From Antedon mediterranea (lineage: Eukaryota; Echinodermata; Crinoidea; Comatulida; Antedonidae), in contig NC_092671.1 in NCBI RefSeq assembly GCF_964355755.1, forward strand, positions 16,339,501-16,403,500: DNA of 64,000 nucleotides. The letters are read 5' to 3'. Both the position numbers and the translations under genes were made by a program. Of the stretch, positions 32,041 through 64,000 are shown one piece after another (position 1 is the stretch's first letter; every line of letters begins with the position of its first letter). Below the pieces are notes generated by a model. The model was not told the DNA's origin. It was given only the letters and a program-made list of their open reading frames with translations, and made no database searches.

Positions 32041-32092
32041 CCCATACCTACAAGTGATAATTTTAATAATTCTATTTTGTTTTTCAGTTAAA

Positions 32093-35000
32093 ATGGGCAT
32101 CAGTAAGATATACATTGGTTTGTTAGTTGTGTTAATATTACAAAGTATATTAACATCTAAAGTATCGTCGAATCCTGTTCGCAAACTGAACGAACCACCT
32201 TCACTAAGCAGATGGGGTAAACGTGCAATGAAAAGTAAGCCACCATAAGTCATCTTGTTACCTTTATTAATGTAATTACATCCGTATCAGACACTTTAAG
32301 GGGCCTATCATGTTAAGTATACCTAGTCGGAAACTGCATGGTATCCATTGGTTCAAAGAACCCACGTACCACAGGCAGTAAGAATGGTAATATAGACCTA
32401 GATCATAATAAAATTCTAAATAAAATCATCAAATGACCTCTGACCAGTATAAGATATTTGCCGAATCGTGGAGATATTTGTCTTTAGGTATGATACGTAC
32501 GTATTAGCGTATTGTATTAAGCGTGGTTCCCACTAGCGACGCAACACAACGCAAGTGAATTAACCAATCACAAGCAATGGCTTATTCGCTTGTGATTGCT
32601 AACTGTCTATAACTTCGCTTGTCATTGGTTAAAACGCTTGCGTTGCGTTTACGTCCTTGCGTTACGTTCTAGTGGGAACCAAGCTTTAGCGTAGTGTTAC
32701 GTACGCAGTAGGCATTAGCTATTCTAATATTGACTTGATATCTTAATATTGATTGACCTATTTTAGTACATTATGTATTTAGAATCAATTGTAAACTCGT
32801 CCAAGGTTATTATGATTTTGAATTTTAAAAGGTCCTCAAGCAAACAAGTTTGAGTTTACATAACTCTCCGAATAATTTTATCTATTTTTGTACTTGTTTG
32901 AATTGGCTACTGTAAACTATGATTGGGCCTTTAGTGTTGTATTGCTAATTGTATCATTTGTAATTTGAAACAATTAGGCCTAAAGTAGAAGAGGAAAAAC
33001 TGATCAATTAAAGAATACGGTAGTTCTATTCGATGACAATATAGCTTTTTCTTTAGTTTTTTCCAATTTGTATTTATTTGTTTATTTTCTTACTTAGTTT
33101 CAGAAGAAGAACCACAAGAATTAACCATAAAAATGTTCGGAGATGAAAACGCATTTTGTGTACACATAGCAGCTGGTGGAATATATAGATGTGTTACGAC
33201 GTAAGTTTCATTTAAAAAAAGAATAATTCGTGGGCTTGGGACTGATATGTCGAACGTCACATCATGGAAAAATAAAGGAGCTCATGGTTAAATCCGCTAA
33301 ATACAGTTCTGATATTTAAGGAACAGGGTGTAGTATTATACAGTATTGGGTTTACGCATGCGCAGATTAATCTTTTGTCGTTCCTCAATTTTATGTAAAT
33401 TAAAAGTCGGAATGTCGCTTCATCTCAATCTGGAATTGAAATCGACTAATTATTCAATGTAAAAACTTTTTGTGTGTATGCAAATGTGAAGTTGAAAATA
33501 TATTGGAAAGCTGATATACATTAATGTAATGTCGGTAACATTATGAAAACATTTGTCTTCTTTTGTCAGTGTACTTAACCTGCCATGATTCTACAAATAA
33601 TGCGTTTGGAGCTTCATAAGAATAAATTGATCATTGATTGTTATGTTGAATTGTTAGAATAATAGATCTGTAAGTAGTAACTGGGGCATTCGTATTATTT
33701 GCAATAAACCTGTCATTCAAAGTACTTTAATCTTGCCGAGATTATTCATAAATTTATATTTCAACAAAAAAGAAGTGACCCACAATTATAGTGATAAAAA
33801 TATCCATTAATCATTATTTTGGATATTTTTAATGACAATAATAACGGTTTTAACATTCAATCAAAGGGTAATGGTATTTCACTGATGAGTACTGGTACTA
33901 CAGTATAATAACAGTGATTATTGCGTGGGAATAATAATTTAGCCGTGAGCGTGACCTTTTGTCTTTTGAACAAAAATATTAATTTCTTTTACAAATCGGA
34001 AAGGAAAACGCACTTAGTTTATTTTAGCAGTACAACTACAAAAAAACACGAGTTATGTACAAATGCTTAGCAAGTACGTGACTAAGAATACAGTAGCCTT
34101 TGAATATTATTTAACTAAAAATATATCAATTTCCTGAGAGCGTTAGTTTACGTGTTCATAAAAAAATCAATTGAAATTCACTTGCAACCACTGCAACCAG
34201 TTGTGATCAAATTACAAAAGCAATGTATTGCTATTTAACCAGCTGAACATGGGGATCGTTAAATGAAATCGAACAGCTAATTACGACTAATGATGAGTCT
34301 GTGTGACATTTAGTGGTGTGATTATGTGAAAATTATGCAAAGTGGACATACAACTTTCTACGAAGCCTTTGGGCAACTTTGCATGTAATTTGTCTCGGGC
34401 ACCATTGGCTCGTCGACTGTTGCATGGAAATTGTCCTATATGGACCTGTTCAGACCAATAAATTCTATATATAGTAACAGATAATATAGTACTGTTCAAT
34501 AATAATTTGTGACGTGTACAAACTATTCATGATTGACAATTCATTTTATTCTCGACAGTTTATGTAATTGATATATTGGGCTGATCTATGCTGTCAGTAT
34601 TACTAACACTAATGTTTCATTTAAGCACTAACGTCATTCAGAATAAATAACTGACAATAACAATTATAGCAGTTATGTGATAACTTGGTATTGGCAGCAA
34701 TATCAGTGACAGTCACTGCATTTCCAGTACTTAGACCTATCACGCGATTACAATCGATCAACATTTGGGATTTTTTATGCCTAGATAAATAGGCCCGGAT
34801 AGAAAGTATAAAAAATACTAAATTAAATGCCAATGACACTGAATGTACAACTTCGGGATAGTTTGTAAAATGTATAAAAGCTAATACTTTTACCATTGTA
34901 ATTATGTACCGATAACCAAATCATTTTTGAATAGGCCTACATGAATTCATTAACGGCCCACTACGGTATTCATTTGTGGTGTGGTACACATACAGTAGGC

Positions 35001-35358
35001 CTACCGATCTGTAAACATACAAAAAAGTTAAAATAACACAACTTACCACCGTCAGCATGGCTACAGTAGGCCTACATTCTATCGGTACAAAACGGGGTGT
35101 CAAGTCGTTAAATACCTCCTTTTTAGTGTACGGAACATCTCCAAAATTGGCCTGTTTTTTTTCAAAAGTCTATATCTGACTTCCCATCGTTATTTTTTTT
35201 TCAAACGTAAATACGTCATTTTCTGATGCGCCCTCAAATTAACTAATTTGCATGCGTAACAATCGTTTTCACGTCTTGAGATAATTGCCACATTAATCAA
35301 ATTTTTTTCTTTTGTTTTTCACAGTAAAGACGAGCGATACAACAACTACAGAAAATAA
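32093..35358 (+). CDS. Luqin-like RWamide neuropeptide precursor, gene A (3 coding exons)
   Basis: Secreted precursor of an amidated neuropeptide. Coding exons by eye: 32093-32234, 33104-33200 (or from 33098; two AG acceptors 6 nt apart, both in frame) and 35325-35358, giving 90 or 92 aa. Residues 1-26 form a hydrophobic signal peptide. Dibasic R30-K31 then precedes LNEPPSLSRW (32-41), followed by Gly42 (amide donor) and Lys43-Arg44 (cleavage). Exon 2 carries Cys66 and Cys77 with 10 residues between; exon 3 adds a short basic tail and stop. Intron phases are 1 and 2. One RWamide peptide directly after the signal, followed by a C-terminal C-x10-C pair, is the known layout of luqin/RYamide precursors; assignment is by that layout, not a search. 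The start is the ATG 5 nt after a strong acceptor (ending 32087), so a 5' non-coding exon is expected upstream. The in-frame ATG at 32054 would lie in the intron. An ATTAAA sits just after the stop; the first AATAAA is at 36590. Confidence 0.85.
32520..32685. mobile_element. MITE family 4, TTA duplication, in intron of luqin-like gene A
   Basis: AGCGTGGTTCCCACTAG ... CTAGTGGGAACCAAGCT terminal repeats, with TTA at 32517-32519 and 32686-32688. Internally CGCTTGTGATTGG-like arms repeat in inverted order. Non-coding. Confidence 0.8.
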
Positions 35359-36012
35359 CGTAAATTAAAGTCAAGTAAGAAGAAGACGTCAACGAGGGGT
35401 TATAAAATTATACAACATAATATGTTCCAACTTCCAATACCAATTCTTATGAAGAAAGTTTGACGGTGTCGATCATTGATAAGATATAGCATAGTTATTT
35501 TAAGTTGTAGCAGATGTAGCATCCTGCTAATAGAATACACCACTTTTATTATGATTTTGTATATTTTAAAATTTGAAATAATGAAAATGAATTTCTTCGA
35601 ACCGAATATACAAATTGTATTACTAAAGGGTAAAATATGGAACAGGGAATTATTTTATTACACTGTTTCCATAGCTTCCGATAATTTCAGGAACTTGGTT
35701 GGTGACTGGATTTTATTCCCGATTATCATATTTGCTTTACTAGAAATTTAATCAGATTTATTTTTAATCATTTTATATGTTGACATACTTACGCTATGAT
35801 ATCCAAGTTGTAATCATTTGTAAAAATATGATATTACATCGTTGTACATAAATTATATGGAAACCTATTATATTGTTACTAATAGACTATTTTATTTCGT
35901 TTTCCTCGTAAGTTCCAGAATCTAAAGTTCTGCAACGTCAGATGAGTGGCAAAATGGAAATAGGCAGTATTATAGATATGCGCACTAACTGTACTATACA
36001 GTAGCCGTGGAA

Positions 36013-36234
36013 CCAGGGAAGAGTTAAGGGTCTTTCACACCTGTTCCGGCACGGTTCCAGTCCGGCGCGGGAAAATCCAATCGAACGTCAATGTTTCGAT
36101 TTTACGCTGCTACGCGCATATCGATTGGCGCATAGCCGCGTGAAAACGAAACATTGATGTTCGATTCGCCGGACCGGAACCGTGCCGGAACAGGTGTGAA
36201 AGACCCTTTAAATTGTAATTTAACTCTTCCCTGG
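36013..36234. mobile_element. MITE family 2 (outer element), interrupted
   Basis: Terminal repeats CCAGGGAAGAGTTAA ... TTTAACTCTTCCCTGG. An uninterrupted relative of only 48 bp is at 21464-21511. The extra length here is one family 3 MITE inserted at the TTA of the left arm. Confidence 0.75.
36027..36207. mobile_element. MITE family 3, copy 1, nested, TTA duplication
   Basis: A 181-bp element with long, GC-rich terminal inverted repeats: AGGGTCTTTCACACCTGTTC ... GAACAGGTGTGAAAGACCCT. TTA at 36024-36026 and at 36208-36210 is the target duplication (PIF/Harbinger type). Internal arms around ATCGATTGG are themselves partly palindromic. No reading frame of note. Confidence 0.85.
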
Positions 36235-36729
36235 TGGAACTAAGAATGTCAACTGTTATGTATTGTTTCTAATGCATCCTATCATTATTAGACTATGTTT
36301 GCGAGTTCATGTTACTTTACAGAGGTACAAGCGTTGTAATCATTATTTTTAAAAGCCGGAAGCTTATCTTTTTTCTTGTTCGATTACATGTATATATTAA
36401 TTTGTTTAATATTGTTTGCAGATAATTAGGACTACGTATAGGCCTATAAAACAATTATAGCTAATAAATGAATGATATGTGGATATACTGCATTGGTATT
36501 TCATTAGTTAATCTAACGAAAGTGGTCTAAGGAACACAATTTTCAAGCAGGTCTTGTTGTATCAACACAATAATTGTATTTTTTATCAAAATAAAATATA
36601 GCAATTTTAAGTTGGTCGTGTATATTTGTCAATAATTTACTTCGTTTCACTTTACCAGCAAACAATAGTCACTCCTACTGAATGTTATATTGATAATAAA
36701 ACTGTACCTTTATTAAATAATATCAACTT

Positions 36730-36848
36730 CTTTGCCGTCGTCATCTTGGTAGTCGTCATCTTGGTCGTCGACAACTCTGCCGTCGTCATCTTTGCCGTCG
36801 TCATCTTGACCGTCGTCATATTTGTCGTCGTTATCTTTTTCGTAACGT
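36730..36848. repeat. 15-bp minisatellite (GCCGTCGTCATCTTG)
   Basis: About seven variants of a GTCGTCATCTT unit. It reads as VVI/VVF repeats on + and MTT repeats on -, so the open frames on both strands come from the repeat and not from a gene. Confidence 0.7.
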
Positions 36849-36942
36849 CATGTGCTTTTTTAGGCATAATTGATACCAAATGATGATTGACCTCAAAGGT
36901 AAAGACTTCACTCAATGTAGGCTGTGAACACTAGAATATTTA

Positions 36943-37080
36943 AAGCTTTGTCTACTATCAAACGTTGTGTTACAAAAAATGTGATTTGCCCATATATGAA
37001 CACGATGATGTCATATCACCACCAAATTTGGACACATCACATTTCTTTTTGTCAAAATATTTTGATAGTGTAGACAGAGC
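36943..37080. mobile_element. MITE family 1, copy 6
   Basis: Left AAGCTTTGTCTACTATCAAA, right TTTTGATAGTGTAGACAGAG, with the usual subterminal GTGAT/ATCAC arms. Flanks are AT-rich and compatible with a TWA duplication but have drifted. Confidence 0.75.
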
Positions 37081-37187
37081 TTTATGTACGATAGAACATG
37101 ATTACATTACTGCCGGATGAGATTTCTCAATTAGTGATTTTCACGCCGCGTATTTGGCAGTTATATTCAGGAGGACGAAGGCGCGGC

Positions 37188-37252
37188 ATAAGGAAACTGT
37201 ATCACGCGCGGAAGCTTATAACTAACGGCTGAAAAAATAGGTATTTCAGACT
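37188..37252 (-). repeat. Dispersed repeat, partner of 28511-28592
   Basis: Inverted and slightly shorter copy, sharing the 19-nt core ATACCTATTTTTTCAGCCG. Unrecognised family. Confidence 0.55.
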
Positions 37253-37939
37253 ATATTTACGTCACATAAAATGTTTACTACTGATTTTTAAACAAAAATA
37301 ATTTATAATATATTATTATTTCTTAAATTATTAAATAGAATATCGATGATAAAAAAAAAGCATCATTTAATGAAGAAAGAACGATAATTAAAACTGTTGC
37401 GTCTAAAAGGGGAGAGGCGTTTTTTGTAAGAATATTTCTTGTTTAGGCCAAATGTAGACATATTATTCAAAAATATTCTTATAATAATTGTTTACTAAAT
37501 AGGCATACTATTCAGAGACGTATACCTATTTGTTGGTGTCTGGAGAGCAGATTGGCAACAACAACGTTCGTACGACAGCAGACCTGTGAAATGTGTGTTT
37601 CGAAAGTTCTCCAAAGACCCTATCATTCAAAGTGAAATAATTAAGATAGTCGTCAAACAATTAAAAACGATGCCTTGTCAGTAGCCTACGCCTAGATCAT
37701 GTAGTCCTGTTTCACGTTTTACGGCATTTACATTCAATTCCATAAAATAATGCATGAATAAGGACTTACATTATTTTGGCTTAGATCATTATTGTGCATA
37801 TAAAGTATTTGTAATGACATGTTTGTTCATTCATTTCTATACTTACTTTGTTTACCTCCCCAAGGAGGTATATGTAATCGGTAGCGTGTGTTTGTTTGTT
37901 ACTTTGCAAAAAGAATTTTGCCAAGTATAGTGTATTCAC

Positions 37940-38036
37940 TTTGTTTGTATGTATGTATGTATGTATGTATGTATGTATGTATGTATGTATGTATGTGTGT
38001 TTGTATGTATGTTTGTATGTATGTTTGTTTGTTAGC
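37940..38036. repeat. (ATGT)n microsatellite
   Basis: About 20 near-perfect TGTA/ATGT tetranucleotides, with TTTG interruptions at the right end. Confidence 0.95.
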
Positions 38037-38559
38037 ACGATAGCGCCTACAGTTTTCAAGTTATCGTTCTGAATTGTGTTATGTACTTTCAGACCATGCC
38101 TATTGAAAATCAACAAAATTGGTTTATTAATAACTTCACAAATAACAAAAATGATATTATTTTCAGACCGGCTAGTGTTAAAAGATAGGAGACAATTTTC
38201 AAAAGCCGGTGAGCAGTTTTAAAGTAACACGTAAACTGAAATTACATTTTCTCGAGAACTACTTGTCCAAAAAACCTCATTTTTGGACAAGAGGCAAGGG
38301 TTATAATTTGTGATTTGTAATTTTAAAACAAAAATTGATTCAATGTACCGGCTTTTTCATACGAGTAGTTTTAAAAAACCTATTTCTTTTCAAATCACCA
38401 GTTTGTTTTTGGCGTTGCTGTTCTATTGTTATTCAAATTAAACTATTGTTAGTTGATAATTAGGTTTGTTAGTACCAGTGTGTGTCCTTCCTTATTTCAT
38501 TCTGTACATAGGTATATACTTACAGAACATGCCTATTGATTTTCAGGTAAATTTTATTT

Positions 38560-38745
38560 TATTATTTTTTTTTATTTATTCAATTTCTGCCATATACATA
38601 ACAAAGAAGACAAAACAATTATAAAAGGAGGCACGGAAAGACCAAACAGGTACTAAACACCTATGCTAGTTGGTCAACCCAAAAAACAACGGGGCTCGTC
38701 CGGGAAATGAACCCGGGGCCTCTCGCACCCAAAGCGAGAATCATG
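38560..38745 (-). mobile_element. tRNA-Pro-derived SINE, 5' truncated
   Basis: On the - strand, 38745-38691 reads as a tRNA-Pro(UGG) missing about the first 20 nt: anticodon arm TCTCGCTTTGGGTGCGAGA, T arm CCGGGTTCATTTCCCGG and acceptor strand GACGAGCCC. A body of about 130 nt follows, ending in GAATAAATAAAAAAA. It interrupts the first unit of the 37.9-40.5 kb repeat array and is absent from the equivalent place in the second unit (about 39690). It is therefore not a working tRNA gene. Confidence 0.8.
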
Positions 38746-40684
38746 ATAATTGATATATTGTTTGTCAAAAAAGCTTATCTTCCGTACGATATATTAAACA
38801 GCACGCATTCTGTCTTCTTTTAACATGGACATATTCTTTGATATGGACCAAGACATTAGTCGACTGGTCAAGTGGTTAAACTTACTACATGGGTTAAGGC
38901 AGAGGCGCCGAAAATCGGCACAGCTTCAAGACACTCCTTGATCATTATTCTGGTCAATCTTGATTTTAGAAAGGTCATTATTGCAATGCCGGAATTGTTT
39001 GTATCCAAAAATTATTTAAACAAATTATTAACCCCAGCAATATTTTATCTATGTAAAGCTAATACCTAAGGCAAAAAAAATGTATCTTTCAACATGCTCC
39101 GAGTCAGTGGATATATTTTGCCAAGTACTTCACTCAGTTTCTGAGTGCTTTCATTTGTTTGTTAGCACAATAGCGCCTATAGTTTTCAAGTTATTCTTCT
39201 GAATTTGTGGGTGTAGATAGCTATATACTTTCAGACCATGCCTATTGAAAATCAACAAAGTTCGTTTATTAACTTCACAAATAACAAAAATGATATTATT
39301 TTCAGACCGGCTAGTGTTAAAAAGGAGACAATTTTTAAAAGCCGGCGAGCAATCTTAAAGTAACAAGTGTACTGAAATTGCATTTTCTCGAGAACTACTA
39401 GTCCAAAAAACATCATTTTTGTACAAGAGGCGAGAGTTATAAATTGTGATTTGTAATTTTTAAAACATAATTTGATTTAATGTACAGGTTTATTGATACG
39501 AGTAGTTTTAAAAAACCTATTTCTTTTCAAATTCACCCGTTTGTTTTTCGCGTTGCTGTTCTATTGTTATTCAAATTAAACTATTGTTAGTTGATAATTA
39601 GTCTTTTTAGTAGTGTACTAGCGTGTGTCCTTTCTTATTTCATTCTGTACATAGGTATATACTTACAGATCATGCCTATTGATTTTCAGGAAAACTGATA
39701 TATTGGTCATGTCTCAAAAGCTTATCTTCCGTAAGATATATTAAATAGCACGCATTCGGTCTTTTTTTAACATGGACATATTCTTTGATATGGATCAAAA
39801 TATTATTCGAATGGTCAAGCGGTTAAGCTTACTACATGGGTTAAGGCATAGGCGCCGCAAATCGACACAGCTTCAAGACACTCCTCGACCATTATTCTGG
39901 TCAATCTTGATTTTAGAAAGGTCATTGTTGCAATGCCGGAATTGTTTGTATTAAAAATTATTTAAACAAATTATTAACCTTAGCAGTATTTTAACCATGT
40001 AAAGCTAATACCTAAAGAAAAAATTGTATCTTTCAACATGCTCCCAGTCAGTGGATATATTTTGCCAAGTACTTCACTCAGTTTCTGAGTGCTTTCATTT
40101 GTTTGTTTTTTTGTTAGCAGGATTACTCAAAAAATAATTACAAGATCTTTACCAAAATGAATAGACAGATAGATATGTGGTCAAGGACCATGGGACCATT
40201 TGGGACCACAGTCCCAATTCTGGACCACTTTTTAGTATACTTTTTCAGACCTGCTAGTATTAAAGGATAGCACAGAATTTTTCAAAAGCCGGCGAGCAGT
40301 CTTAAAGTAACAAGTAAACTGAAATTGCATTTTCTCGAGAACTACTTCATTTTTTAACAAGAGGCAAGAGTTATAATTTGTGATTTGTAATTTTAAAACA
40401 TAATTTGATTTAATGTGCACGTTTTTTGATGCGAGTAGTTTCAGAAACCTATTTCACTCGTTTGATTTTCGCGTTGCTGTTCTATTGTTAGTCAACTGAA
40501 GCTATTGTTAATTGAAAGGCTTGTTACATAACCATTACACCAAACTCGCATACACATGCTTGTAATGAAATTAGCCACACACACAAATATATATATATAT
40601 TTTTTTTACCGGAGAAATCTTATGTAGGAGAATTTTACAGTAGGCGGAGGTATGCACTCTCGGAGTGGCTTTCTAGTTTCATAA

Positions 40685-42180
40685 TGTACCGATACACATT
40701 AAATTCACATACACATTATGCTTTGAAGACGTACATTTTCGAGGCTGTTTTGCTAAAGTGTCGTAACAGTGTCATATGCATCTTTACATGATCCACATGA
40801 CACTGTGTCATAAACTTTTGATTATGATACTGCATCAATTATCAAATTATAGTACTGAGAACATCTAATTCCATGACTTCTACTATTCATAATACTATTT
40901 CTACTGTACCAAGGCTACAATAACTAGGCCTACTAACTTCGTTAATTAACGGAAATGAAACATGGGTAGTCTTCATGAACATTATTCCATATACCTTGCA
41001 TCATCGTTAATTTCAAATTGATATTATTGAACCTCTTGTTAAATGAAGAAGAATACGGTAATAAGGTCAGTGGTAACCAATTACACAAGAAAATAATCTG
41101 CTTTGAACTAATTTGGTATGAAAATTCATTTTCATCAATGTGTATATTAGCTTGTGTATAGTATTACACACTAAGCAACATATCGAGGAAGTGGATAACC
41201 GTACGTCTATACTGCAAGGTTAGATGTAAATGGAAGATAATTATTGTAATTCAATAAGATATCTAATAATGTTTTCGATCAAATACTTCTATTAGTTGGG
41301 AGTTTGCGCGCGGTATATACACCTGATTTAATTAGTGTATATTATTTTAATAAAACAACAATATACATAGAAAGATTGTTCTACTCATTCACGACTATTA
41401 TACTGATTAAGACCAAGCACTGTACCAATGTATTACTGATGAAGAAGAAGCCTTTAAAGTAGATTTTAAAAGCTTTTAAAAAAATAATGTAATGATCTAC
41501 GTATCCACTATAACAATCCATTCAATTGAACATATCGTATTATAAAAACTTTTAATCAGCCAGCTAATTATTTACTGGTGTTTGTTCCCTGTTGACAGAC
41601 TACTTCGATTTAAATTGATCAATAGTATTCCAAGACTTAAGGAATATAGGCCCTATATATTATTATCTACAATATAATACATTACATACCGATAAATCCA
41701 ATTGCATACAGCTTACTAGATGTAACAGAAATGCCATGATAGAAAACAATATTTTGATATTAATAATACGAAAACAAAATAATATTTAGTTTCGAGCAAA
41801 AGTTTATTTTCTTTCTTTGTCCAAAAATAACAAATATCTCACGTTAATACATTTTCAAAATTATAAATATACATGGTACCGTATTCTCTATCATAACGTA
41901 ATAATTATGTTATTACTCCATGATTCTACCAAATTATAATAACAATTAAAAATCGTCAATTTTGTGTTGACGTGTTCGATTCACAATTTTAGATTGTATG
42001 ATCGGCGTTATATAAACAGAGACTATTTACCGCCAAAATTGCAATGACAAACATCCGACTGGCGTTCTGGTTTAACGTCAGTGCGTCGACGACGTGGTGT
42101 ACACGGAGTGGCATCTCGAATCTGCCCTCATCTTGGTACATTTGTTTGTAACTGGAGCATCAAGTTATTATTTTATTGTG
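40685..42180. other. Gene-less stretch
   Basis: AT-rich to about 42000. 42050-42150 is GC-richer, with a TATAAAC phrase at about 42011, but no exon or family is recognised; frames there run into the MITE. Confidence 0.5.
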
Positions 42181-42183
42181 TTA

Positions 42184-42363
42184 AAGGTCTTTCACACCTG
42201 TTCCGGTACGGCGCCGGAAAATCCAATCGAACGTCGATGTTTCGTTTTCACGCGGCTACGCGCATATCGATTGGCTCATAGCCGCGTGGAGCGTCATGAA
42301 AAAGAAACATTGATGTTCGATTCGCCGGACCGGAAGCGTGCCGGAACAGGTGTGAAAGACCCT
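42184..42363. mobile_element. MITE family 3, copy 2, TTA duplication
   Basis: A 180-bp close relative of the element at 36027-36207, flanked by TTA at 42181-42183 and 42364-42366. Short open frames across it are by-products of its GC-rich palindrome and are not genes. Confidence 0.85.
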
Positions 42364-42937
42364 TTACTTCTGAATTAATTTCCATATAGAAGCTAAAAAA
42401 ATAAACTTAGGCCTATTTCCAAAAAAGCAGTAAAGGGAAATATAAATGGGCGCGGCGCTGCAACAGTGGTAATAATAAGGGCCTACTTAAGAATACCAAA
42501 CATTTTAATGACATTATTGTTTGTCTAATTCTGTTATGAAACAATGAATTACGGAATGACGCCGATGATTTTTAAATATCTAGAACAGACCAGTATTCAA
42601 ACTTCTTGATTTGAGAGGTCAATAAAATGTGTCTGTGACGTAATATCGTGCGTGTGTCGTGATCTGAAATAAAACAAAAATTATTATGGTAATGTCGAAT
42701 CATTAATCAAACTGAACTTTTGATCCAAATTATCTGTAAAAGAACAAATTAATCATTCATCTGAGTCAATATATAAAAATGTCAAAATTAAATGAATGAG
42801 GGAAAAAAAATTAAAATTCATAGCTTGTCAATCATGATAAAAATGAAATAAAAATATTAATTACACAGCGTATTAAATTATTATTTAAAATTGAAAGTAG
42901 AATTATTAGAATACAACAATGGAGATTATTATTTTTG

Positions 42938-42998
42938 TGACGTACGTGAGCACCAAGCTAAAATGCATAAAAGGCAGTCGCTTGTTCAGCCCCCGTCA
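42938..42998 (+). promoter_or_regulatory. Promoter-like CRE + TATA arrangement
   Basis: TGACGTAC at 42938, GCATAAAAGGC at 42965 and an initiator-like TTCAGCC about 20 nt later, in a locally less AT-rich patch. No downstream exon is recognised, so this may be the promoter of an unseen transcript or chance. Confidence 0.25.
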
Positions 42999-42999
42999 G

Positions 43000-44075
43000 G
43001 AATGTTAGAGTAGGTCTTTGTTATTATTATTTATTTCTATTATAAATACTTAAAGATTATTTTCTGAAATGCCAAAGGGGGATAAACAATTAAGACCTTT
43101 TTGGCGTGTCATATTTTAATTTTGGTAAAATGTATAAATTAATATTAGGCCTATAACAACAGCGGCACAAACAAATCGCAAACATACATACATATCGAAA
43201 AAATACAAGAAAAAATTAAATCATTATAGCAAATACTTCATAATTCATGCCTTTTTTATATATCTTTTACTAAACTTATTAAATACATCATAAAGAGGAT
43301 TAGGCTAAACTTTGGGTCATTAATAAATTAGTCAGAGTTACCAAAAGTTAACATTAATTTTACACCAGAAATCAAAAGATATCAATGATTAAACTACTCG
43401 TGTTAGATCATGGCACTTTCAAGATTAAACAACGTTTTGACTCGCTGATAATACATTTAGGCATAGTAGGCCTATATAAAAAAGAAATGGATTATGAGAA
43501 TGAAAGGTGAAATAATTGGACTTTAGAGTATTTTACAAATGCGATTGATTGGAGTCAGTGTCCTACAATAAATACAATATTACTTTAATTAGTATTACAT
43601 AATTTCTAAATTTTATCAATTTCGTGAATAAAAAAATGCAATCTAAAATATATATACTTTATATACATATCAATCATATCCTGCTAGTTTGTTAACTTGA
43701 AATAATGGTAATGTTGACGTGGTATTAAAACAATTGCGACATAAAGCGTTTTTAATACGTACAATAAACCAGAATCACTGTGTCATAAAAGTGTCACATC
43801 CGATATAAACATCTATAAAAATGACTGTATTTAGCTCTCAGCAGTACTACATTCAAATTCAAACGAGTATATAATATGACGACCGAAAAAAGAAAGCTTC
43901 TTGAATCCAATCATTTTACATCGATTGTAATTGTTATAGGTTTTGTTCAGTTGTCTTGGATTGTTGTCAAATTATTATCCTATAATCACAACTAATATTA
44001 TAGACACCTTAATACTAGTAGAACAATTGCCGTCATCAAGTAAAATTACACCCATCACAATCATATTATTGGATC
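43000..44075. other. Gene-less AT-rich stretch
   Basis: Nothing recognised besides TAGGCCTA palindromes. Confidence 0.55.
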
Positions 44076-44077
44076 TA

Positions 44078-44303
44078 AGGCCGTGTTTCCGCAGCCAAAA
44101 AAACATTATCGGTTAATTTTTTAACCAATAAAGTGCGCATGGTTAGTCATTACCAAACAACCAGATGCCCAATCACAACGCAACAATTTGTCCTTCAGGT
44201 CAAAGGTTAAAAATTATCACATTTTATCCGATAATTATCCGGTTAAACCCCGTTTCCACAGGCAGTTTATCGGTTAATTATCGGTTAAGTTTTAGCTGCG
44301 GAC
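44078..44303. mobile_element. MITE-like inverted-repeat element
   Basis: AAGGCCGTGTTTCCGCAGC at the left is complementary, with gaps, to GCTGCGGACATACGGCCT at the right. The inner TTATCGGTTAAT motifs are also repeated on both arms. The target duplication is not clear. Confidence 0.55.
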
Positions 44304-44304
44304 A

Positions 44305-45478
44305 TACGGCCTATACATAAACCGTTATCGTACAACCATGACTATTGGACTAGGTTTTGTTGAGTCAAGAAAAGAGAAAGCCATTCTTATCTACCGACAG
44401 AATAGGCATTTCATTTCTAAAACTGCATACGGCTTACTCTACAATCCACACCGTCTGTTGTTCGGTGACGAATCATTCTTCATTACGCTACCAAATCTAC
44501 GCGAATCTACTTTTACTATGGTGTTAATATAATATAACATAAGTCGTTTCATTAATGTATTATTATATAGTATTCTAACAGTCAAAGGGAAGCTCTAAAT
44601 TACCAGGCGACAATACTGCACGGAAAGATAATACAAGTGCGCATTGTAAAAATTATGATCAGATCTAATTTGTTTGTGGAATAAGAAAACTGAAATATTC
44701 AACATTTATTCTAGTAATTAATTGTAAATCACAGATTCTTTACTAGGCAAACTTAATAATACCGTCTAATCACTGCAGCATCTTATTCCAGTTAAGAAGA
44801 TAAGTACGCATAATAAATTTAATAGTATATTTCAAATTTGCTTTCAACGTGACGACGATATAACAAAACGATGCAATAGCCAATGTCATCATGTAAAAAT
44901 TATAATATATTTTTTATTTTTTTAGAAAACAGGTCTGATAATTAGTGTTTCCTTAAGATGCTATTATGAATCTGGACCACGATGGTACCATTATCTACTT
45001 GCCTGATTGTTATTATTTTCAAACACTTAGTATCCTAGTTATCGTTAGCAATTTCTCTTTAAATCGAAATCCCGGTTCAAAAGCCTCTACTTAATGAAAG
45101 TTCTACAGACTAGTACGTCTTTGTTAAATACATCCACCTACCTCACTAAAGAGCAGTTTTGACTGGTTTAATTTTGATTCATAACGTGCGCTATCAGGGC
45201 TATAAACAGATTAATCATAATTCTGTGGATGGCTAATGTCTATTGATTCATAATCCTTCTTAATTCGTTCGCAACTTCCATAACTCATTGATAGAATAGG
45301 ACATTTGATCTACGAATCTAGGCGGTAAGCTTTCATGTTCTATAGAAATATAATCATGAAATACTCATCTGAAGCCTATGATGATGTAATAGCAATTATA
45401 TGCAGGCCTATATAAGGAGTGTTTTTAAATAGTAAAATACCAAGAAAACGACTAACATTAGTAATGTTTGAATGATGA
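44305..45478. other. Gene-less AT-rich stretch
   Basis: A 64-codon frame at 44338 starts next to the inverted-repeat element and has no family signs. Nothing else seen. Confidence 0.5.
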
Positions 45479-45479
45479 A

Positions 45480-45960
45480 TAAACGATGATGGTGATGATG
45501 ATGATAAAAAATGATGATATTGTTGTTGATGCTGATGAAGAAGAGGATGAAAAATGACGATGTTGTTGTTGATGATGATGATGAAGAAGAAAAATAGGAC
45601 AAAAAATGATGATGTTGTTGATGATGAAAGAAGAAGATGATGATGATGATGAAGAAGAAGATGAGGATAAAAATTGATGACGTTGATTATGATGATGTTA
45701 AAGATGATGATGAAAAATGTTGATAATGAAGAAGAGAATGAAAAATGATGATGATGAAGAGGAAGAAAAATGATGATGTTAATGATAAGGATGATGATGA
45801 AGAGGACGAAAAATGATGTTGTTGATGATGACGATGGCTATAGGTAAGGAGGATGATAATGAATAGGATAATTACGACAGGGATGATGAAAAAATTGTTT
45901 TTTTAAAATATGTTGATGATGATGATAATGATGGTGACAAGAGTTGATATCGATATACTT
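45480..45960. repeat. GAT/GAA-rich trinucleotide tract
   Basis: About 480 bp of GATGATGAT, GAAGAAGAA and GTTGTTGAT runs broken by AAAAATGATGATGTTG, a higher-order phrase that recurs at least six times. Open frames here are of Ser/His/Asp-rich simple sequence and are not credited. Confidence 0.85.
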
Positions 45961-46225
45961 AAATAAACATATGATGGCGATAACGGTCAATGATGACGTG
46001 TTAAACTGTTTTAAAATTATATTATTACACATACATTACGTTCAATTGCTTTTACTCTAAAGAAAATTAAAAAGCATTCAGAAATGTCACCTAAATTGAA
46101 TACTTGAAGTTGTTTACGTCTGCTTCAAAGGGATGATGATGTTTGATGTAAACACTTTTTAGTTTTTCTATTTAACTGATTTATATTAGATATATACTCG
46201 ACTTTTTTTTATGGACAATTGTTAT

Positions 46226-46744
46226 GTAAACCGCCACTTACCGGTGATATGTTGTGTGTAAACCGCCACTTACCGGTGATATGTTGTGTGTAAACCGCCA
46301 CTTACCGGTGATATGTTGTGTGTAAACCGCCACTTACCGGTGATATGTTGTGTGTAAACCGCCACTTACCGGTGATATGTTGTATGTAAACCGCCACTTA
46401 CCGGTGATATGTTGTGTGTAAACCGCCACTTACCGGTGATATGTTGTGTGTAAACCGCCACTTACCGGTGATATGTTGTGTGTAAACCGCCACTTACCGG
46501 TGATATGTTGTGTGTAAACCGCCACTTACCGGTGATATGTTGTGTGTAAACCGCCACTTACCGGTGATATGTTGTGTGTAAACCGCCACTTACCGGTGAT
46601 ATGTTGTGTGTAAACCGCCACTTACCGGTGATATGTTGTGTGTAAACCGCCACTTACCGGTGATATGTTGTGTGTAAACCGCCACTTACCGGTGATATGT
46701 TGTGTGTAAACCGCCACTTACCGGCGATATGTTGTGTGTAAACC
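46226..46744. repeat. 32-bp minisatellite, 16 full copies
   Basis: Unit GTAAACCGCCACTTACCGGT + GATATGTTGTGT. Sixteen full copies run at an exact 32-nt step and a partial GTAAACC closes the array. Only two single-base variants are visible (TGTGT to TGTAT near 46384; CCGGTG to CCGGCG in the last full copy). No frame stays open in a gene-like way. Confidence 0.97.
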
Positions 46745-47154
46745 TAATCTAAAATGTTCTTCTTTTGTTGTCTTTGTGCAACGACATAAATTTACAAAAC
46801 AGTTCGAAGTAAACAAGATTCATATGACATTATTATTTTTAGTATTTTTATTCATTAGCATTATCAAGAATTGCCAAAAGCGAAATTAATCCGTTGTCTA
46901 TGTCTGCAGCAATGATCATACTATTTTTCAAAAACCACAATACAGTGCGTTTTCCCTTTTATTTATTTTATACTTTGTAGATTCGGAGAACTGGCAAAAT
47001 GTAATTATTCATTCATATTTAATAACATTATATTGATTAGATTATGATAAAATGTCAACATTTTTAGTTAAAGGTATTTACAAATCCTGACCATTATGAA
47101 TAATATATAAACGTATTTATATATTAATCCAAAGGCAAATTACTGAAAATATGA

Positions 47155-47300
47155 CAATGCTGTGGGTATCAGTGGCTGGATCTCAATGGAGATACAAAAA
47201 AAAGCTAAAAGCTAAATCAAAACGATAAAGAAAAACAGCCAGAAAAGTTCGCAGAGCTTTCCAGCAACACTAGCCCTTCATCAGTGCAAGTGAAGGAATT
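47155..47300 (-). repeat. Dispersed repeat with hammerhead-like motif, copy 2
   Basis: Shares ATGCTGTGGGTATCAGTGGC and the following segment with 19845-19990. On the - strand it has CTGATGA (47284-47278), a short stem-loop AGGGC ... GCT, then GAAA (47261-47258), so both conserved core strands of a hammerhead are present. Penelope-like and related retroelements are known to carry such ribozymes. No element body or enzyme is seen here. Confidence 0.6.
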
Positions 47301-47304
47301 TGGA

Positions 47305-48815
47305 TAACGTCATAGTATAAGAACTGGCAAGTGCTGCCTGGGTGGACAGGAATAAAAGAAATACAACAAAGGGTGACAGGGTGGAGTCTGAATAAGAGTA
47401 GAAAACAAAGAAGGTAGCTTGGTAGAGATATAAACAATTTGGGAATTTAACTAAAAAACAGCTTAAATTTATGTATTATTATATATTTAATATTTTTGAA
47501 GAACAGAAATGTATTAATATAAATTATGTAAATCATTAGAGGTGTTGATCGATTCGTAGTGGGTTAACTATGCTTAAAAACTAACCTACTGATTGTCTCA
47601 ATCAATACTGTACACAGCTGCTGTATTCAAAATTAAAACTATAGATCTAAAAAAGAACCACGTGCAACTAAACTAAATATATTTATCTGTTCAAGAAAGT
47701 TTCATCAGCGTTTCCAAACAACTAACATTGTTAATTTGCATGGTGCATATATGAAGGCCGATCAATAAACTAAGATTGTTTATTTATTGTTGATAAATTA
47801 ATTTTAAAAACACCTTATTGAATTAAGGGTAATATTATTTGAAGAATATAGGCCATTTTATCATAATTACTGTATGTTACCGTATTGTTCGTAAATGGAA
47901 TTTGTTTCCTAATTATTTGGCATAACTGCTTTTTTGGGTATATACATTATCTGAACAATTCAGTACAGTATCCAAGTTCTATAGAAAACAATACCGTGGA
48001 TATACCATTTATCTACATAATAACTGATATTAAGAAGAGTGTGATACTTTGCAATGTACAATATAAGGAATTCTCCAGAAAACTATGCAATGTACAATAT
48101 AAGGAATTCTCCAGAAAACTATACATTAAATAAACAAATTATCAGTCCTAAAGCCTGTATTCAGATCTAGTAGATCAGATCAAATAGTTATAACTAAATA
48201 AGTCGCCAAGATTGCAGCAAACTGAAAATATATAATGGATAATAGGATGTCTCTGAGAAGGCCAGTCATTATAATGAACCATTACATAGTAATATAGGCG
48301 TTATTGAAAAATCTATAGACAATTCTGTACATCAGTAATCCAAGGTTTAGTAACAAAACAATCGAAAAATATCGTTTAAGAAAAATGAACCTCATGCGTA
48401 CAATATCTATCGGTATGAATGAAGAAAGAATAAATACACGCCTACTCTAAAAGAGAAAACAAAATGATTATACAATGTTCGTTGACTTCAAATCTTGTTA
48501 AAAAAAAACCTAAAGATACAAAGTATAAATATACACTATAAATAAATGCACGTCAAACAAATATCTGGTCAATTAATCCTTTTCTGACGATTGTTTGTTT
48601 GCATCAAAGCGATTATATCGAACTACTTTGACGACATATCACCTGGGTCGTATTGTAGCATAATTGTGTTTGTCCAATATGATAAATGTATGATATTGCC
48701 TAAGTTGCTGTTGATAAATCATTCATTTTTTTCTAACTTGCATCTGAGTAAATCATTCAGCAGCCTAAACAAGTTAAATGTACTACCATTTTCTACTATA
48801 TTATAGGCGCGGAAT
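47305..48815. other. Gene-less stretch downstream of luqin-like gene B
   Basis: Probably includes the 3' UTR of gene B (- strand). The 36-bp duplication at 48051 is the only structure noted. Confidence 0.5.
48051..48122. repeat. Perfect 36-bp tandem duplication
   Basis: TGCAATGTACAATATAAGGA followed by ATTCTCCAGAAAACTA occurs twice in direct succession without a change. Confidence 0.9.
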
Positions 48816-48818
48816 CCT

Positions 48819-51800
48819 TTAAAGCTGACTTTGACTTCCATGGTAGCGTCTTCTGAATAAAACGGTTAGCAGCGCACAACAACTATACAATTCTTTTTAC
48901 AACAAATACTTTTAAAGAGTTTCTACGACAGAATTGCTTCAAAGACGAAAACAAGTATTGGAATATTAATGTAAATGGTTAGCTGTATATTCATAATATA
49001 ATATCTTCGCCGTTTTTAGTAAGTCAGTCAACATTACTCTTTAAAACGTCATATTCACATTGAAACTAAAGAACTTAAAGATTATGTTTTCGGGTAGCAT
49101 TTTCCTTCACAGAACTATGAAACTCGAGAAAAGAGAAACATAGCCAACAGCAGTGAGCGATATCTATCAACAGGAAATGTATATGTCTATATAGGACGTC
49201 AAATGTCGTAGTACGACATTGTACGCGCGCTTCCTTCATGTTCAAATATTAGCCTCGTCACGTTTGCATTAATTTTTGGCAATAATCATTTAACATTAAA
49301 ATTGTGTTTAGGGAATCAACACTTAACACTAGGTAATAGCACTTATATAGTGCCTAGATAAGTGAGTGAATAAATACGACCAAAAAAGGTTGGGAATCAA
49401 CGTCTAAAATAGTTCTTATATTCATAATAATATAAAACCACTACAATGACAAACTCTTGTCCGTTATTAATATGACAGTATACCGATATCCAATCAAATA
49501 TAACGTTGCTGAACAACCAAACACGGTTAATAATCCCCCTCTAATCAAATTAGAGGGGGATTTTTTTAATTTTAATAATTAGCTCTTTGTCTACTCTATA
49601 CGTTTACTAGGCTGATTTCTGAATGTACGTAAGCTTCAAATTCAACAGTTTTACTAAAATAATAAAAAGATCGTTAGTAGTACCTTATAATACACTTTAG
49701 TCTCTTTAGAAATGGCCCATCACATACACCAGGTGTGTCTATAAAATCAGTGTTATCTTTATTGAAGAGAGTGCTAAGTGTCGTAGATATGTTTAATAAG
49801 TCTTCTTTAATATCAGCCATGTCTTTATTGGATTCTGTAAAGAGATGAGTATACATTGTAATAACAGTATATTGACATACGTCATCATGCACATTTTTAT
49901 ACTTTGATTTTCCAACTTTTATTTACGCGATTTCATTGATAAAAATTGTCTTCCCGTACTATGATTAACAATGCTACACACAAACTTACATTTATTGTCA
50001 ATACTATCCAATCTTTTACATGTTTTAATGTTTTAGCACATTCAACGTTTAAAGTATACGTTAAATGTGTTAAAACATGAAAAATGTAAAAGATTGTTTT
50101 TATTTCTGACTGGGTTTATATTCTATTGGACATTGTGTCTCAATTGTAATTGTGTATGTTCTCGGCTCCAGGGAAAAAACAATCATGAGTTTATCTGGAT
50201 TTTCGTGGATAAATTGAATTTTAAAAAATGAAGTACAGTGGCATCTTTAGCTCAAATGACAACTGAAGTAAATTGCCCTAGGTTCAATTCCCTATAGTTG
50301 CAACCATAGTAATGTAAAAACTGGAATCTATGACCTTTCGCGCGCATATCGTGAATGTTATAGAATTTGTAGCAGGTGTATAAAATTGCGTTATATATGA
50401 CGTCATTAAAAATCAGAACAAGACACAATTATAAGGCAATTAAGCCGAGTCGTACAGCCCATTGGGACTATTCAACCTGGTTCTTTATTGAGTCTTTGAT
50501 AGATAAAAAGATGTGATCACTACTCATCTTGACAAGGTATTTAGAGTACAACGTTCTGACGCCGTATTCACATAAATTGTCGGTGACAGAGAGAAAACGA
50601 TGATACATAAATCGACGCGCGCGTACAAATGATGATAATAATACATCACACACTAGCGTAAACGTTTGTGTCACTATTATTTATTTATTACTCAAGTATA
50701 TATCTTTGTAAAATTAAAGCCAGTAAATTCCACAAAGCTCAAGAAGAAAGTTTAACTGATTTGATTTGTAGAATAATGATTGTTTTTCTCGGATTTGAGT
50801 ATAAATTAAAACTAAATCATTCACAAACACAGCTTATGAAAATTTGTTTAAATCCTATTAAGTTATACACATCATAATTAACTAATTATCATTATTGGTA
50901 AAGTAGCTTGTTCTTCTCAAACACCCGCCTTTGTTGCGTATAACCTTTTACCGTGATTTTCATTTACAGCCCTGTACTAATACGTAAATACATTTGATTA
51001 TCGGTGGTTAAAATGTCAATAAACTACAGCAAAACGAGAAATAATAAATAGTTAGTAGGGGGATTATTTACGTTTGGTAAGGCCTGTATACGCAAGTTTA
51101 GTACCTTACGGTGATGTATGTAAAGCTCTGTCTACACTATCAAATTAGTTTGACAAATAAAGTGTGATGTGCCCAAATACCTCCCACACACAACCATCAG
51201 CTCCAGTTCACCCTCCCCAAAGTCAGGACACAACGCACAAAAAACTTCATTAATTTCCAAGGAGTTTTCAATGATTGGTGAATAATCAGGAACTGAGTTA
51301 TGATTAGCAAATTGTGAACCCATTTTGGTTTGTTGTACACTATGTTTTTTTTTCTTTGATAAATTTTTTTAAATATTTATGTCAACTTCATCACTGTTTA
51401 CTTGATGCAATAACAGGAAATAAATAAAATAAATAATAAAATAAATAATAAAATATATGGTAGTAATATGGCCAATTATGGTAGTGATATTACATCATCA
51501 TGTCCATATATGGGCACATCACATTTTTTTGTCACATATAGTTTGATAGTGTAGACTTAAGGCCAATTGTGGTGGAAACTCATCTTTATGTCCAGCTTGG
51601 TACATTTGGTCCGCCTTGTGGTTCAAGGAAAGCTCTTGAGTTTGGGATAAACACCGTAAGAAAAACCTACTGACAACACGTCCTGCCAACGCATCAGTAT
51701 ATGGAAAACAGCCTCAAGTATGGTAACGGATGCTTGAGGAGGAGGGCTAAATTCCGTTAAGCTCTGTCTACACTATCAAACTTTATGCGACAAAAAATGT

Positions 51801-52137
51801 GATGTGCCCATATATGGACATGGTGATGCCATATCACTACTATTTAAGCATATCACACTTTTTTTTCAAACTAGTTTGATAGTGAAGACAGAGCTTTAGT
51901 AAGTATTTACATTTGAAGTAAAACAAATTGTATACAAACAAGAAAATATGTTTATTAAAATAATTAGTATTTGATTTACATACCTGATAATGATGTGTAC
52001 GTTCGTTTTCCCCATCTACTGTGTTTTGGAGGGTGATTGAGGCGGCGTACTGCTTCGATCGGCGTTACAGTGGATAGAATTAAAACATACACAAGAGTCA
52101 TACATAATATCGACGTCACCGGACTGTTGTTAACCAT
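48819..52137 (-). CDS. Luqin-like RWamide neuropeptide precursor, gene B (3 coding exons)
   Basis: Paralogue of gene A on the opposite strand. Coding exons: 52137-51984, 49834-49684 and probably 48852-48819, giving about 112 aa. Residues 1-29 are a signal peptide (hydrophobic core 9-24). R31-R32 precedes LNHPPKHSRW (33-42), then Gly43 and Lys44-Arg45, so a decapeptide amide is expected, aligned without gaps to gene A. Exon 2 has a longer acidic linker than gene A, then Cys89 and Cys99 with 9 residues between (family norm 10). Phases are 1 and 2, as in gene A, and the second intron again falls 8 nt after the second Cys codon. The terminal exon is inferred from an acceptor with a good branch-site match (CTAAC); it gives 11 residues counting the split codon, the same as gene A, but other acceptors are possible. 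An acceptor lies 7 nt before the ATG, as in gene A; an upstream in-frame ATG at 52224 is therefore disfavoured. First canonical poly(A) signal I see is near 47784. Confidence 0.8.
49532..49562. repeat. Perfect 14-bp hairpin with T-run
   Basis: AATCCCCCTCTAAT, loop CAA, ATTAGAGGGGGATT, then six more T. It looks like a bacterial intrinsic terminator, but the setting is a eukaryotic intron (between exons 2 and 3 of luqin-like gene B, other strand). Most likely a chance or mini palindrome. Confidence 0.7.
50009..50096. repeat. Long near-perfect hairpin, miRNA-like in shape
   Basis: Arms of 39-40 nt starting CAATCTTTTACAT and ending ATGTAAAAGATTG, with a loop of about 9 nt, one bulge, one wobble and two mismatches. 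Lies in intron 1 of luqin-like gene B. It could be a small palindromic MITE or a miRNA precursor; nothing here decides. Confidence 0.6.
50235..50310 (+). mobile_element. Possible tRNA-like SINE remnant
   Basis: GGCATCTTTAGCTCAAATGA resembles an A-box region and AGGTTCAATTCCCTAT a B box, with suitable spacing. Strongly decayed. It lies in intron 1 of luqin-like gene B, on the other strand. Confidence 0.3.
51124..51558. mobile_element. MITE family 1, copy 7, long form with foreign insert
   Basis: Left end AAGCTCTGTCTACACTATCA and right end GTTTGATAGTGTAGACT belong to the family. Between the subterminal arms lies about 290 bp not seen in the other copies. Its left half (51180-51340) has a less AT-rich, coding-like composition. 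It sits in intron 1 of luqin-like gene B. Confidence 0.7.
51760..51895. mobile_element. MITE family 1, copy 8, TTA target duplication
   Basis: AGCTCTGTCTACACTATCAA ... GTTTGATAGTGAAGACAGAGCT flanked by TTA on both sides. Lies in intron 1 of luqin-like gene B, less than 100 nt from the donor of the peptide exon. Confidence 0.8.
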
Positions 52138-52149
52138 CTTAAAACTGTA

Positions 52150-57599: not shown

Positions 57600-58460
57600 C
57601 TGTTACAGTGTGTGAAGGCACACGTTCAAAAAGAGTTGAAAATCAACTTGTGTCGTTAGATCACTAAATTTTAAAAAAAATGTGTTTATGTAGGCAGGGC
57701 TTAGTGTAGGCAAGAAAGAGTATTGGCATTTTAAATGATACAATACACAATTAGTAAGCCTCAAATCATCTCTATGCTCAAATTAAGTCTTTTTGTTAAA
57801 TGAAAACATACATTTTTTTTGCAATCATGCAAACAAAGAATACAATGCATTGCTGAACTCACCTGGTACGAGACGTGTAGTACAACACCGTCAATTAGAA
57901 CTTGTTGTTTGTAGCTGACGTTCAGCCATTAATGCATTAATTAAGCTATATCCATTAGATAATATACACATAGAACAGCCAAAATATTATGACACGGTGT
58001 CCTCCCACGTTAAAGTTATTATATTACTATTACTATCGGTCCCCTAACGGGGTTTTATTTATGTTTAGGCCTCTGGCCCTTATATCTTACATACAAATCA
58101 TACAATAATATTTTCTGGTATATAAAATGTATACTGTACATCTTTATGTGGATCTACAGTATTTCACAATAACAGTGTCCATGATGTAAACAAAGTTTGT
58201 GTTTGCACTTTTTATTATCAAATAATTAATCAGTATAAGTATACTCATTCAGCGCGCCAAAGTTGTAAAAAAAAATTACCAACGTTATTACACTTAATTG
58301 ATAGATTACAACATTTTAAAAGAATTTTAGTCTCCTCTCCTAAATATTGTAGAGGAATGATCTGGTCTGTAAAATGTCCACTTGCAATATCGATTGAGGG
58401 CGCTAAACTAAACTTCTGGTTTTATATTGTTTGTTTATTTTCTGTATTTTCGTGTGCCGT
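57600..58460 (+). other. Upstream flank of IGBP1
   Basis: Expected to hold the IGBP1 promoter. No TATA box is obvious near the start. GATTGAGGGCGCTA at about 58393 is the only GC-rich motif near the ATG. 58030-58085 resembles a LINE tail on the - strand (AATAAAACCCCGTTAGGGG) but is unproven. Confidence 0.4.
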
Positions 58461-58464
58461 CATT

Positions 58465-62069: not shown

Positions 62070-64000
62070 GTTTTATCATACTTGACCTCAGCAATACATC
62101 ACACAATGGGCATCTCTGGCAGAAGAATTAGAAATTGAATATAAGTAAACCGCAGTTGCATTAGATTTTTCAAAGAAATTAAACAGTTAATCATCATGGA
62201 AGCAAGGAAACGTATGAACACTTAAACAGTTAAAAAGAGAATATCTTTATGTAAGATTAAGCAAAAAAGTTACGGTTTTATGCAGATCAAAATCATACCC
62301 ATAGGATACCACACCAAACAGATTAGTTTTCCATTTCAAACACACCTTCGCAATTCACACAGACAATTAAACTTTGACCCAAAAAACTGCTTAATCTTAT
62401 ACAAAATTTATTAACACCTACTTATTGAATGAATGCATGAGCAATAAACAATTTAATTGAAATGATAAATTGTAATAAAAATAACATTTACACCTGAAGT
62501 TAATGTTTAGTTAATCATGTGGTGTTTAAATATAATTTACATTGAAATTAGTCGAATCATGTTAGTGTTTCATGCATGTAATATACTTTTTATATTTTTA
62601 ATAGTGTACCGACTGTATGGTTTTCCAGCGTGCACGAGGAACACTATAGTGGGTTCACCTTAGCTCAACATGGATCAATTTACATGAAATTGTTCCAAAT
62701 TTGGGCATACAATTATATCCTTATTACTGTAGTAAAAACAATTTAATTACATCACAAAAATTGCCAAAAGAATTGTTTTCACGACTGAAAATATAATACT
62801 TATTTAATGTTAGGAATATTTTAAATAAAAAAAAAATACTTTTAATTCAATTTTCTAAATGTATAAAATGCGCCATGTGTAACGGCGACAAGTTTCTTCA
62901 CTAAATGAATGTGCTTAAAATCTATCATATACAATTGTCTCACAAATAAACCACTATCTTACACTACAGTACATACATAATTGTTGTAATAATATGAATT
63001 TATGAAACACTTTCTCAATACCTAATAACGATTTTATATACAACAAACACTTGGGCAACATATAAACACTATATACAAGAGTGTTTGAACTGCGGTGCCA
63101 GTTCACAGAAATTACACACTAAACACTTTTAAACAGCAAATCTTTGGCTGTATATCCATCTCATCCACAAATTCCCCTTAGAATTTACAGCACATAAATT
63201 TATATATTTATAATATATACATAACGAAACAGTAAAAATTCTAAAATGTACACATTTAACTTACAGACGCTACAGTCAATGTTACAATGATTATTGGAAG
63301 ATCATTATAGCAGACAATATGGACAAACATGGTTTCAACCCAACTATATAGCACATAAACTAATAATTCAAAAAATACTACATTTTAAATGTTTTTGCCT
63401 TGCAACACATAATTGTATAGTTTATTTCAGCCTTTTATATTGTCATGTATATAATAATCAACTGGAATATGATGCTTTTTACTATTATCAAAATGTCCAT
63501 TGCAAATATTTATTTCCCTGTATTCATTGTTTAAAGTTGGCTTTGAAATGTTGGAAGTAATATATATTTTATTTTAAATTACTACTTAACTAGTGTTTAA
63601 ATGAGGTAATTTTACCATTATTTTGTATCGTAGGGTGTCCATTAAAAAAAAGAGAAAAAATTGAGCTCCATAGTACAAGTAATGTTATGTAATATTGAGA
63701 AATTTTGTAATGGCATCATCAAAATGAACATCATTTAATTTGAATACTATGCAGTACCAAAGACTATGCATGCATACCAATCTATATGCAGTGATATATT
63801 CCACAACAACCACAATTCTTAAATTTGGCATAGTCACAAAAGCTATCACAACAAAGGTTGATTTGTGATTGGATGTTTTATAAGCTAAATTTACACTGAG
63901 TCTGGGTTGCGGTCTTGTGGCACGATAACAATGTTAAATGGGTGTATGTTTAAGAATACAACCGTTCAACATTCTAGAAAAAATGTAACCTAGCCTGGAC
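62070..64000. other. Gene-less AT-rich stretch after IGBP1
   Basis: No exon, RNA gene or named element recognised. Frames such as 63294-63560 are AT-driven. Confidence 0.5.

Follow-up and report, generated by a model that had tools for sequence, protein, structure and literature searches.

A convergent pair of probable luqin-type precursor genes in the genome of the crinoid Antedon mediterranea

Exon structure of genes A and B

The window (the whole 64-kb stretch of DNA that was analysed) contains two genes, A on the forward strand and B on the reverse strand, in both of which the frames are intact, the N-termini are hydrophobic, and amidation signals, basic cleavage signals, and plausible splice sites were read directly. 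An earlier sequence-only reading had described two genes with frames, peptide-GKR motifs, splice-like sites, and two-Cys exons, and all of these, together with the start codons, were present in the sequence. Gene A starts at 32093 (+) and was modelled as three exons spanning 32093-35358; the start codon of gene B is at 52137 (-). The features are listed below, with slashes marking exon-intron boundaries.

32086-32087, + strand: candidate 3' splice site (AG), 5 nt upstream of the gene A start codon; weak, rank 200/5890
32093-32234, + strand: gene A coding exon 1, with a signal-like N-terminus and a putative luqin-type peptide; phase-1 donor GTAAGC
32186-32215, + strand: LNEPPSLSRW of gene A, with NPVRK directly before it and GKR directly after it
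33098-33200, + strand: gene A exon 2, with C-x10-C (CVHIAAGGIYRC); phase-2 donor GAC/GTAAGT
35325-35358, + strand: gene A exon 3, encoding the tail (T)KDERYNNYRK and a stop, for a precursor total of 92 residues
48819-48852, - strand: possible third exon of gene B, for a precursor of 112 residues; uncertain, 30 candidates being listed
49684-49834, - strand: gene B exon 2, with C-x9-C (CDGPFLKRLKC); possible phase-2 donor AAG/GTACTA
51984-52137, - strand: gene B coding exon 1, with a signal-like N-terminus, RR, a putative luqin-type peptide, and GKR; phase-1 donor CAG/GTATGT
52012-52041, - strand: LNHPPKHSRW of gene B, 10 residues, flanked by RR and GKR
52145-52146, - strand: candidate 3' splice site (AG), 7 nt upstream of the gene B start codon; rank 45/5890

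The first coding exons read as MGISKIYIGLLVVLILQSILTSKVSS-NPVRK-LNEPPSLSRW-GKR-AMK for gene A and MVNNSPVTSILCMTLVYVLILSTVTPIEA-VRR-LNHPPKHSRW-GKR-TYTSLS for gene B, each followed by a phase-1 intron; the hyphens mark signal, cleavage, and amidation sites that were judged by eye and are presumed. The best 10-residue Kyte-Doolittle means of the two N-termini were 3.16 and 2.67, respectively. A dibasic site followed by a decapeptide had been claimed for both genes, which holds for gene B (RR); the corresponding site of gene A is Arg-Lys, so its decapeptide is not certain. The stretch from the presumed signal cleavage through the Trp of gene A has 15 residues, and the mature product may be either LNEPPSLSRW or the 15-mer NPVRKLNEPPSLSRW. 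The published prediction for the Antedon peptide AmLQ2 is a 15-mer (PMC9793003).

Donors and acceptors were ranked among all 7328 GT and 5890 AG sites on both strands of the window, with approximate values as weights. The first and second donors of gene A ranked 126 and 113, respectively. Its second exon can begin at 33098 (acceptor rank 172) or, with the frame kept, at 33104 (rank 147), and the acceptor of its third exon ranked 4. This third exon was the sole option among 18 listed candidates to yield a precursor of 92 residues; 3 of the 119 strong acceptors in the window yielded exactly this length, so the agreement with the published precursor AmLQP2 is not decisive by length alone. For gene B the first donor ranked 31, the acceptor of exon 2 ranked 76, and the second donor ranked 727, meaning that 727 sites are as strong across approximately 128,000 positions. 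Unless this second donor is used, the frame runs to a stop ending at 49674 and the precursor has 104 residues. The possible third exon has an acceptor of rank 132, and none of the 30 listed third-exon candidates gave a model of 123 residues (the nearest gave 122, 122, 124, and 125). With regard to the AG sites preceding the start codons, a control showed that 26 of the 2596 window ATGs are preceded within 10 nt by a top-2% AG, a class that includes the gene B site and excludes that of gene A. Echinoderm SALMFamide genes are reported to have introns upstream of the start codon (PMC9793003).

Homology of the two genes and competing explanations

A degenerate DNA pattern coding PP-x-x-x-RW-GKR was searched on both strands of the 354-Mb genome sequence, which may contain gaps or lack some stretches, and matched twice, both times in the window; the reversed pattern, used as a control, had no match in the genome. 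When each exon 1 protein was searched against the genome it matched itself and the other gene (E 0.0046 and E 0.013). The alignment of the two first exons scored 78 compared with a shuffle mean of 22, and the score was reached in 0 of 500 shuffles. We conclude from these comparisons that the first exons are, as judged by their similarity, clearly homologous. Neither the motif search nor the exon 1 protein search of the genome yielded a third luqin gene. A third exon 1 match on C4 (E 0.42) was rejected; it has an internal stop, and its listed ORFs lack SRW-GKR. The eleutherozoan-type KFMRWGKR, searched as an exact pattern, had no match in the genome.

The second exons gave a different picture. 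Their alignment score was reached in 408 of 500 shuffles, which is no significant similarity, and when either one was searched against the genome, the query exon itself was the sole match. A loose scan of the 64 kb on both strands for two-Cys exons (pyrimidine-rich acceptor, phase 1, open frame, and C-x(8-11)-C near the stop) returned 14 rows, 3 of which belong to the genes (two alternative acceptors of A and one of B), and the other 11 include one duplicate listing. A two-Cys exon by itself is weak evidence; such exons are cheap by chance, so the weight rests on the first exons. The intron phases of the two genes agree (1, then 2), and in both the second donor lies 2 codons plus 2 nt past the last Cys. 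This shared phase and Cys-to-donor offset speaks for homology of the second exons despite the loss of sequence similarity.

A later pair of cysteines had also been claimed for both genes, and it is present in both, with different spacings: the 10 residues expected of a C-terminal luqin Cys pair are found in gene A, and gene B has 9. Accepted luqin members deviate as well, with a spacing of 8 in Caenorhabditis elegans and a pair at spacing 10 in two of four planarian precursors (PMC7041311). Gene B is thus considered luqin-type by its homology to gene A and, because of its spacing of 9 rather than 10, is graded more cautiously. The signalling molecule is not the two-Cys tail, which has been suggested to help process the precursor within the secretory pathway (PMC5940834). 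The comparison of genes A and B suggests that the Cys tail can diverge without loss of the peptide or of the intron phases.

The evidence could be read in other ways. From the frequency of loose two-Cys exons it might be argued that the motifs arose by chance in non-coding, AT-rich DNA, but this is scarcely credible given that the only two peptide-motif matches in 354 Mb lie less than 20 kb apart and that the first exons are homologous. The pair might instead form a so far unreported RWamide family that has no relation to luqin and reached the same ending by convergence. The LNxPPxxSRW sequence is unlike the FMRW-type luqins, and there was no convincing Pfam match (the 82-residue two-exon model of gene A had no family, and gene B had a chance-level match only, E 0.18). 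Published crinoid luqins nevertheless share with the pair the SRWamide ending, the adjacent prolines, the number of precursors, and the peptide lengths (PMC9793003), and the tail of gene A has the C-x10-C spacing that typifies the family, which makes such an origin very improbable.

Somewhat less remote, although still unlikely, is the explanation that gene A functions as a luqin gene and that gene B, of which the peptide exon alone is kept, is either degenerating or has acquired a second exon of unrelated origin. The dissimilarity of the two second exons, the C-x9-C spacing, and the mediocre second donor of gene B (727/7328) would all fit this explanation, but the frame of gene B is intact, its first donor (31/7328) and second acceptor (76/5890) are strong, its intron phases and Cys-to-donor offset agree with those of gene A, and an A. 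mediterranea precursor with a 10-residue luqin peptide exists (PMC9793003). The results are most consistent with genes A and B being paralogous crinoid genes for luqin-type precursors, duplicated long ago and facing each other on one chromosome, with A corresponding to LQP2 and B to LQP1; on the features compared we regard this identification as very probable. The proposal that the genes are luqin paralogues is supported by the way the precursors are laid out, by their RWamide ending, and by the combination of SRWamide with adjacent prolines seen in crinoids (PMC9793003).

Gene arrangement, surrounding sequence, and proposed working

Genes A and B are convergent. The distance from exon 3 of gene A is 13.5 kb to the possible exon 3 of gene B and 14.3 kb to exon 2 of gene B, so the earlier figure of 13.5 kb stands as 13.5-14.3 kb, depending on which exon of gene B is the last. 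No significant remnant of the duplication was detected at the DNA level in the surroundings of the genes (best blastn E 0.048), and the coding exons are not covered by any of the 10 inverted-repeat pairs of at least 40 nt listed between 31 and 53.2 kb. From these two observations the duplication would not be recent. In two other crinoids one luqin precursor each was found (PMC9793003), which would fit a lineage-specific duplication as well as a gene lost or overlooked elsewhere. We tentatively propose, at a confidence that falls a little short of probable, that an old inverted duplication was kept as a linked convergent pair, with the peptides diverging in charge and N-terminus, the precursors diverging in the Cys tail, and the products acting as distinct ligands. 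If this proposal is correct, the animal would have two distinct luqin ligands, a basic decapeptide and a 15-mer, compared with the single luqin precursor reported in other echinoderms.

Several repeats lie within or between the genes. Intron 1 of gene A contains a foldback element at 32519-32686, whose two pairs of inverted repeats are 94% and 85% complementary, and intron 1 of gene B contains nested foldback repeat elements with inverted arms at 51121-51898. A 78-base piece of the latter had at least 53 matches in the genome (40 of 1105 candidates scored), up to 99% identical outside the window, and a related copy is found at 36954-37089. Another foldback element is present in two copies at 36022-36223 and 42168-42368, with both direct and inverted matches. 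Complex direct repeats occupy 38024-40533, many of them spaced approximately 0.92-1.14 kb and up to 98% identical in parts, and a tandem array with a 32-base period and nearly identical central copies occupies 46097-46864. Pfam analysis of 16 of the 50 window ORFs of at least 75 residues gave only two notable results, both outside the luqin-type genes. The ORF at 59430-59711 (+) matched TAP42 just under the cut-off (E 5.6e-5, 22.9 bits vs 26), and in the ORF at 63291-63560 (+) the Suv3 helical N-terminal domain (Suv3_N) was matched below its threshold (E 0.0014). The ORF at 58126-58614 (+) had no Pfam match; we take it to resemble the first exon of a TAP42/IGBP1-like gene, and the region 58126-59711 (+) probably holds an exon of such a gene.

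According to the working that we propose, genes A and B would be transcribed in neurons, and convertases would cut the precursors at KR, at RR as well in gene B, and perhaps at RK in gene A. The glycine of GKR would be converted to an amide, and the secreted products, LNHPPKHSRW-amide from gene B and NPVRKLNEPPSLSRW-amide or LNEPPSLSRW-amide from gene A, would activate luqin-type G-protein-coupled receptors. The action of the starfish peptide ArLQ on a luqin-type receptor has been shown (PMC5940834, PMC7041311). To survey receptors, the genome was searched with PF00001, which gave at least 148 matches (147 of 977 candidates scored), and with a tachykinin-receptor query, which gave at least 120 (123 of 682 candidates scored). 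For a receptor exon at L013 (G000:C6:5443900-5446500), one of eight translated regions, the best solved-structure matches were tachykinin receptors; by this similarity among solved structures it falls in the tachykinin/luqin neighbourhood and may be of either type. The published crinoid peptide crinotocin, CFWRTCPVG (PMC9793003), is encoded in the genome once, followed by GKR, in the exon CFWRTCPVGGKR at L006 (G000:C4:25447225). On this one marker, therefore, the host is a crinoid, as expected for crinoid luqins.

Comparison with published luqin-type precursors

The pair had been suggested to be undescribed and lineage-specific, a suggestion that the literature does not support: two luqin-type precursors of Antedon mediterranea, with 10- and 15-residue peptides, were reported in 2022 (PMC9793003). 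The amidated peptide is 10 residues long in AmLQP1, a precursor of 123 residues, and 15 residues long in AmLQP2, a precursor of 92 (PMC9793003). Gene A resembles AmLQP2 in its 92 residues and in allowing a 15-residue peptide, and gene B resembles AmLQP1 in its 10-residue peptide but differs in length (104 or 112 residues as modelled, compared with 123). The genes and the published precursors were likened by number, lengths, and stated features. Crinoid luqin-type peptides are described as having SRWamide and adjacent prolines, compared with MRWamide in other echinoderms (PMC9793003); genes A and B both carry the SRW ending, followed by GKR, and the adjacent prolines. Both also have the ambulacrarian layout of one RW-Gly and dibasic site closely after a signal-like N-terminus.

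In the available portions of PMC9793003 we found no mention of luqin gene linkage or exon structure (the exon passages there concern SALMFamide genes), nor of the orientation of the genes or the C-x9-C of gene B. No further relevant report was found in titles and abstract openings, a coverage that lies largely outside subscription journals. Relative to these sources, the family and the precursor pair are already known, and what is new is the linkage, the orientation, the exon structure, and the Cys spacing of 9 in gene B. Both types of luqin precursor reported from an Antedon transcriptome are now placed adjacent to each other in a crinoid genome, together with their exon structure. A linked luqin pair opens no new kind of system. 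ArLQP of Asterias rubens and other eleutherozoan luqins likewise have one RWamide after the signal, a glycine and KR, and a two-Cys tail, with one precursor reported per species compared with the two genes here (PMC5940834, PMC7041311); they differ in ending with KFMRWamide and in having one proline where the crinoid peptides have two adjacent ones (PMC9793003). The luqins and RYamides of protostomes share the precursor plan with genes A and B and the C-x10-C tail, with exceptions in spacing, with gene A, but end in RFamide or RYamide (PMC5940834, PMC7041311).
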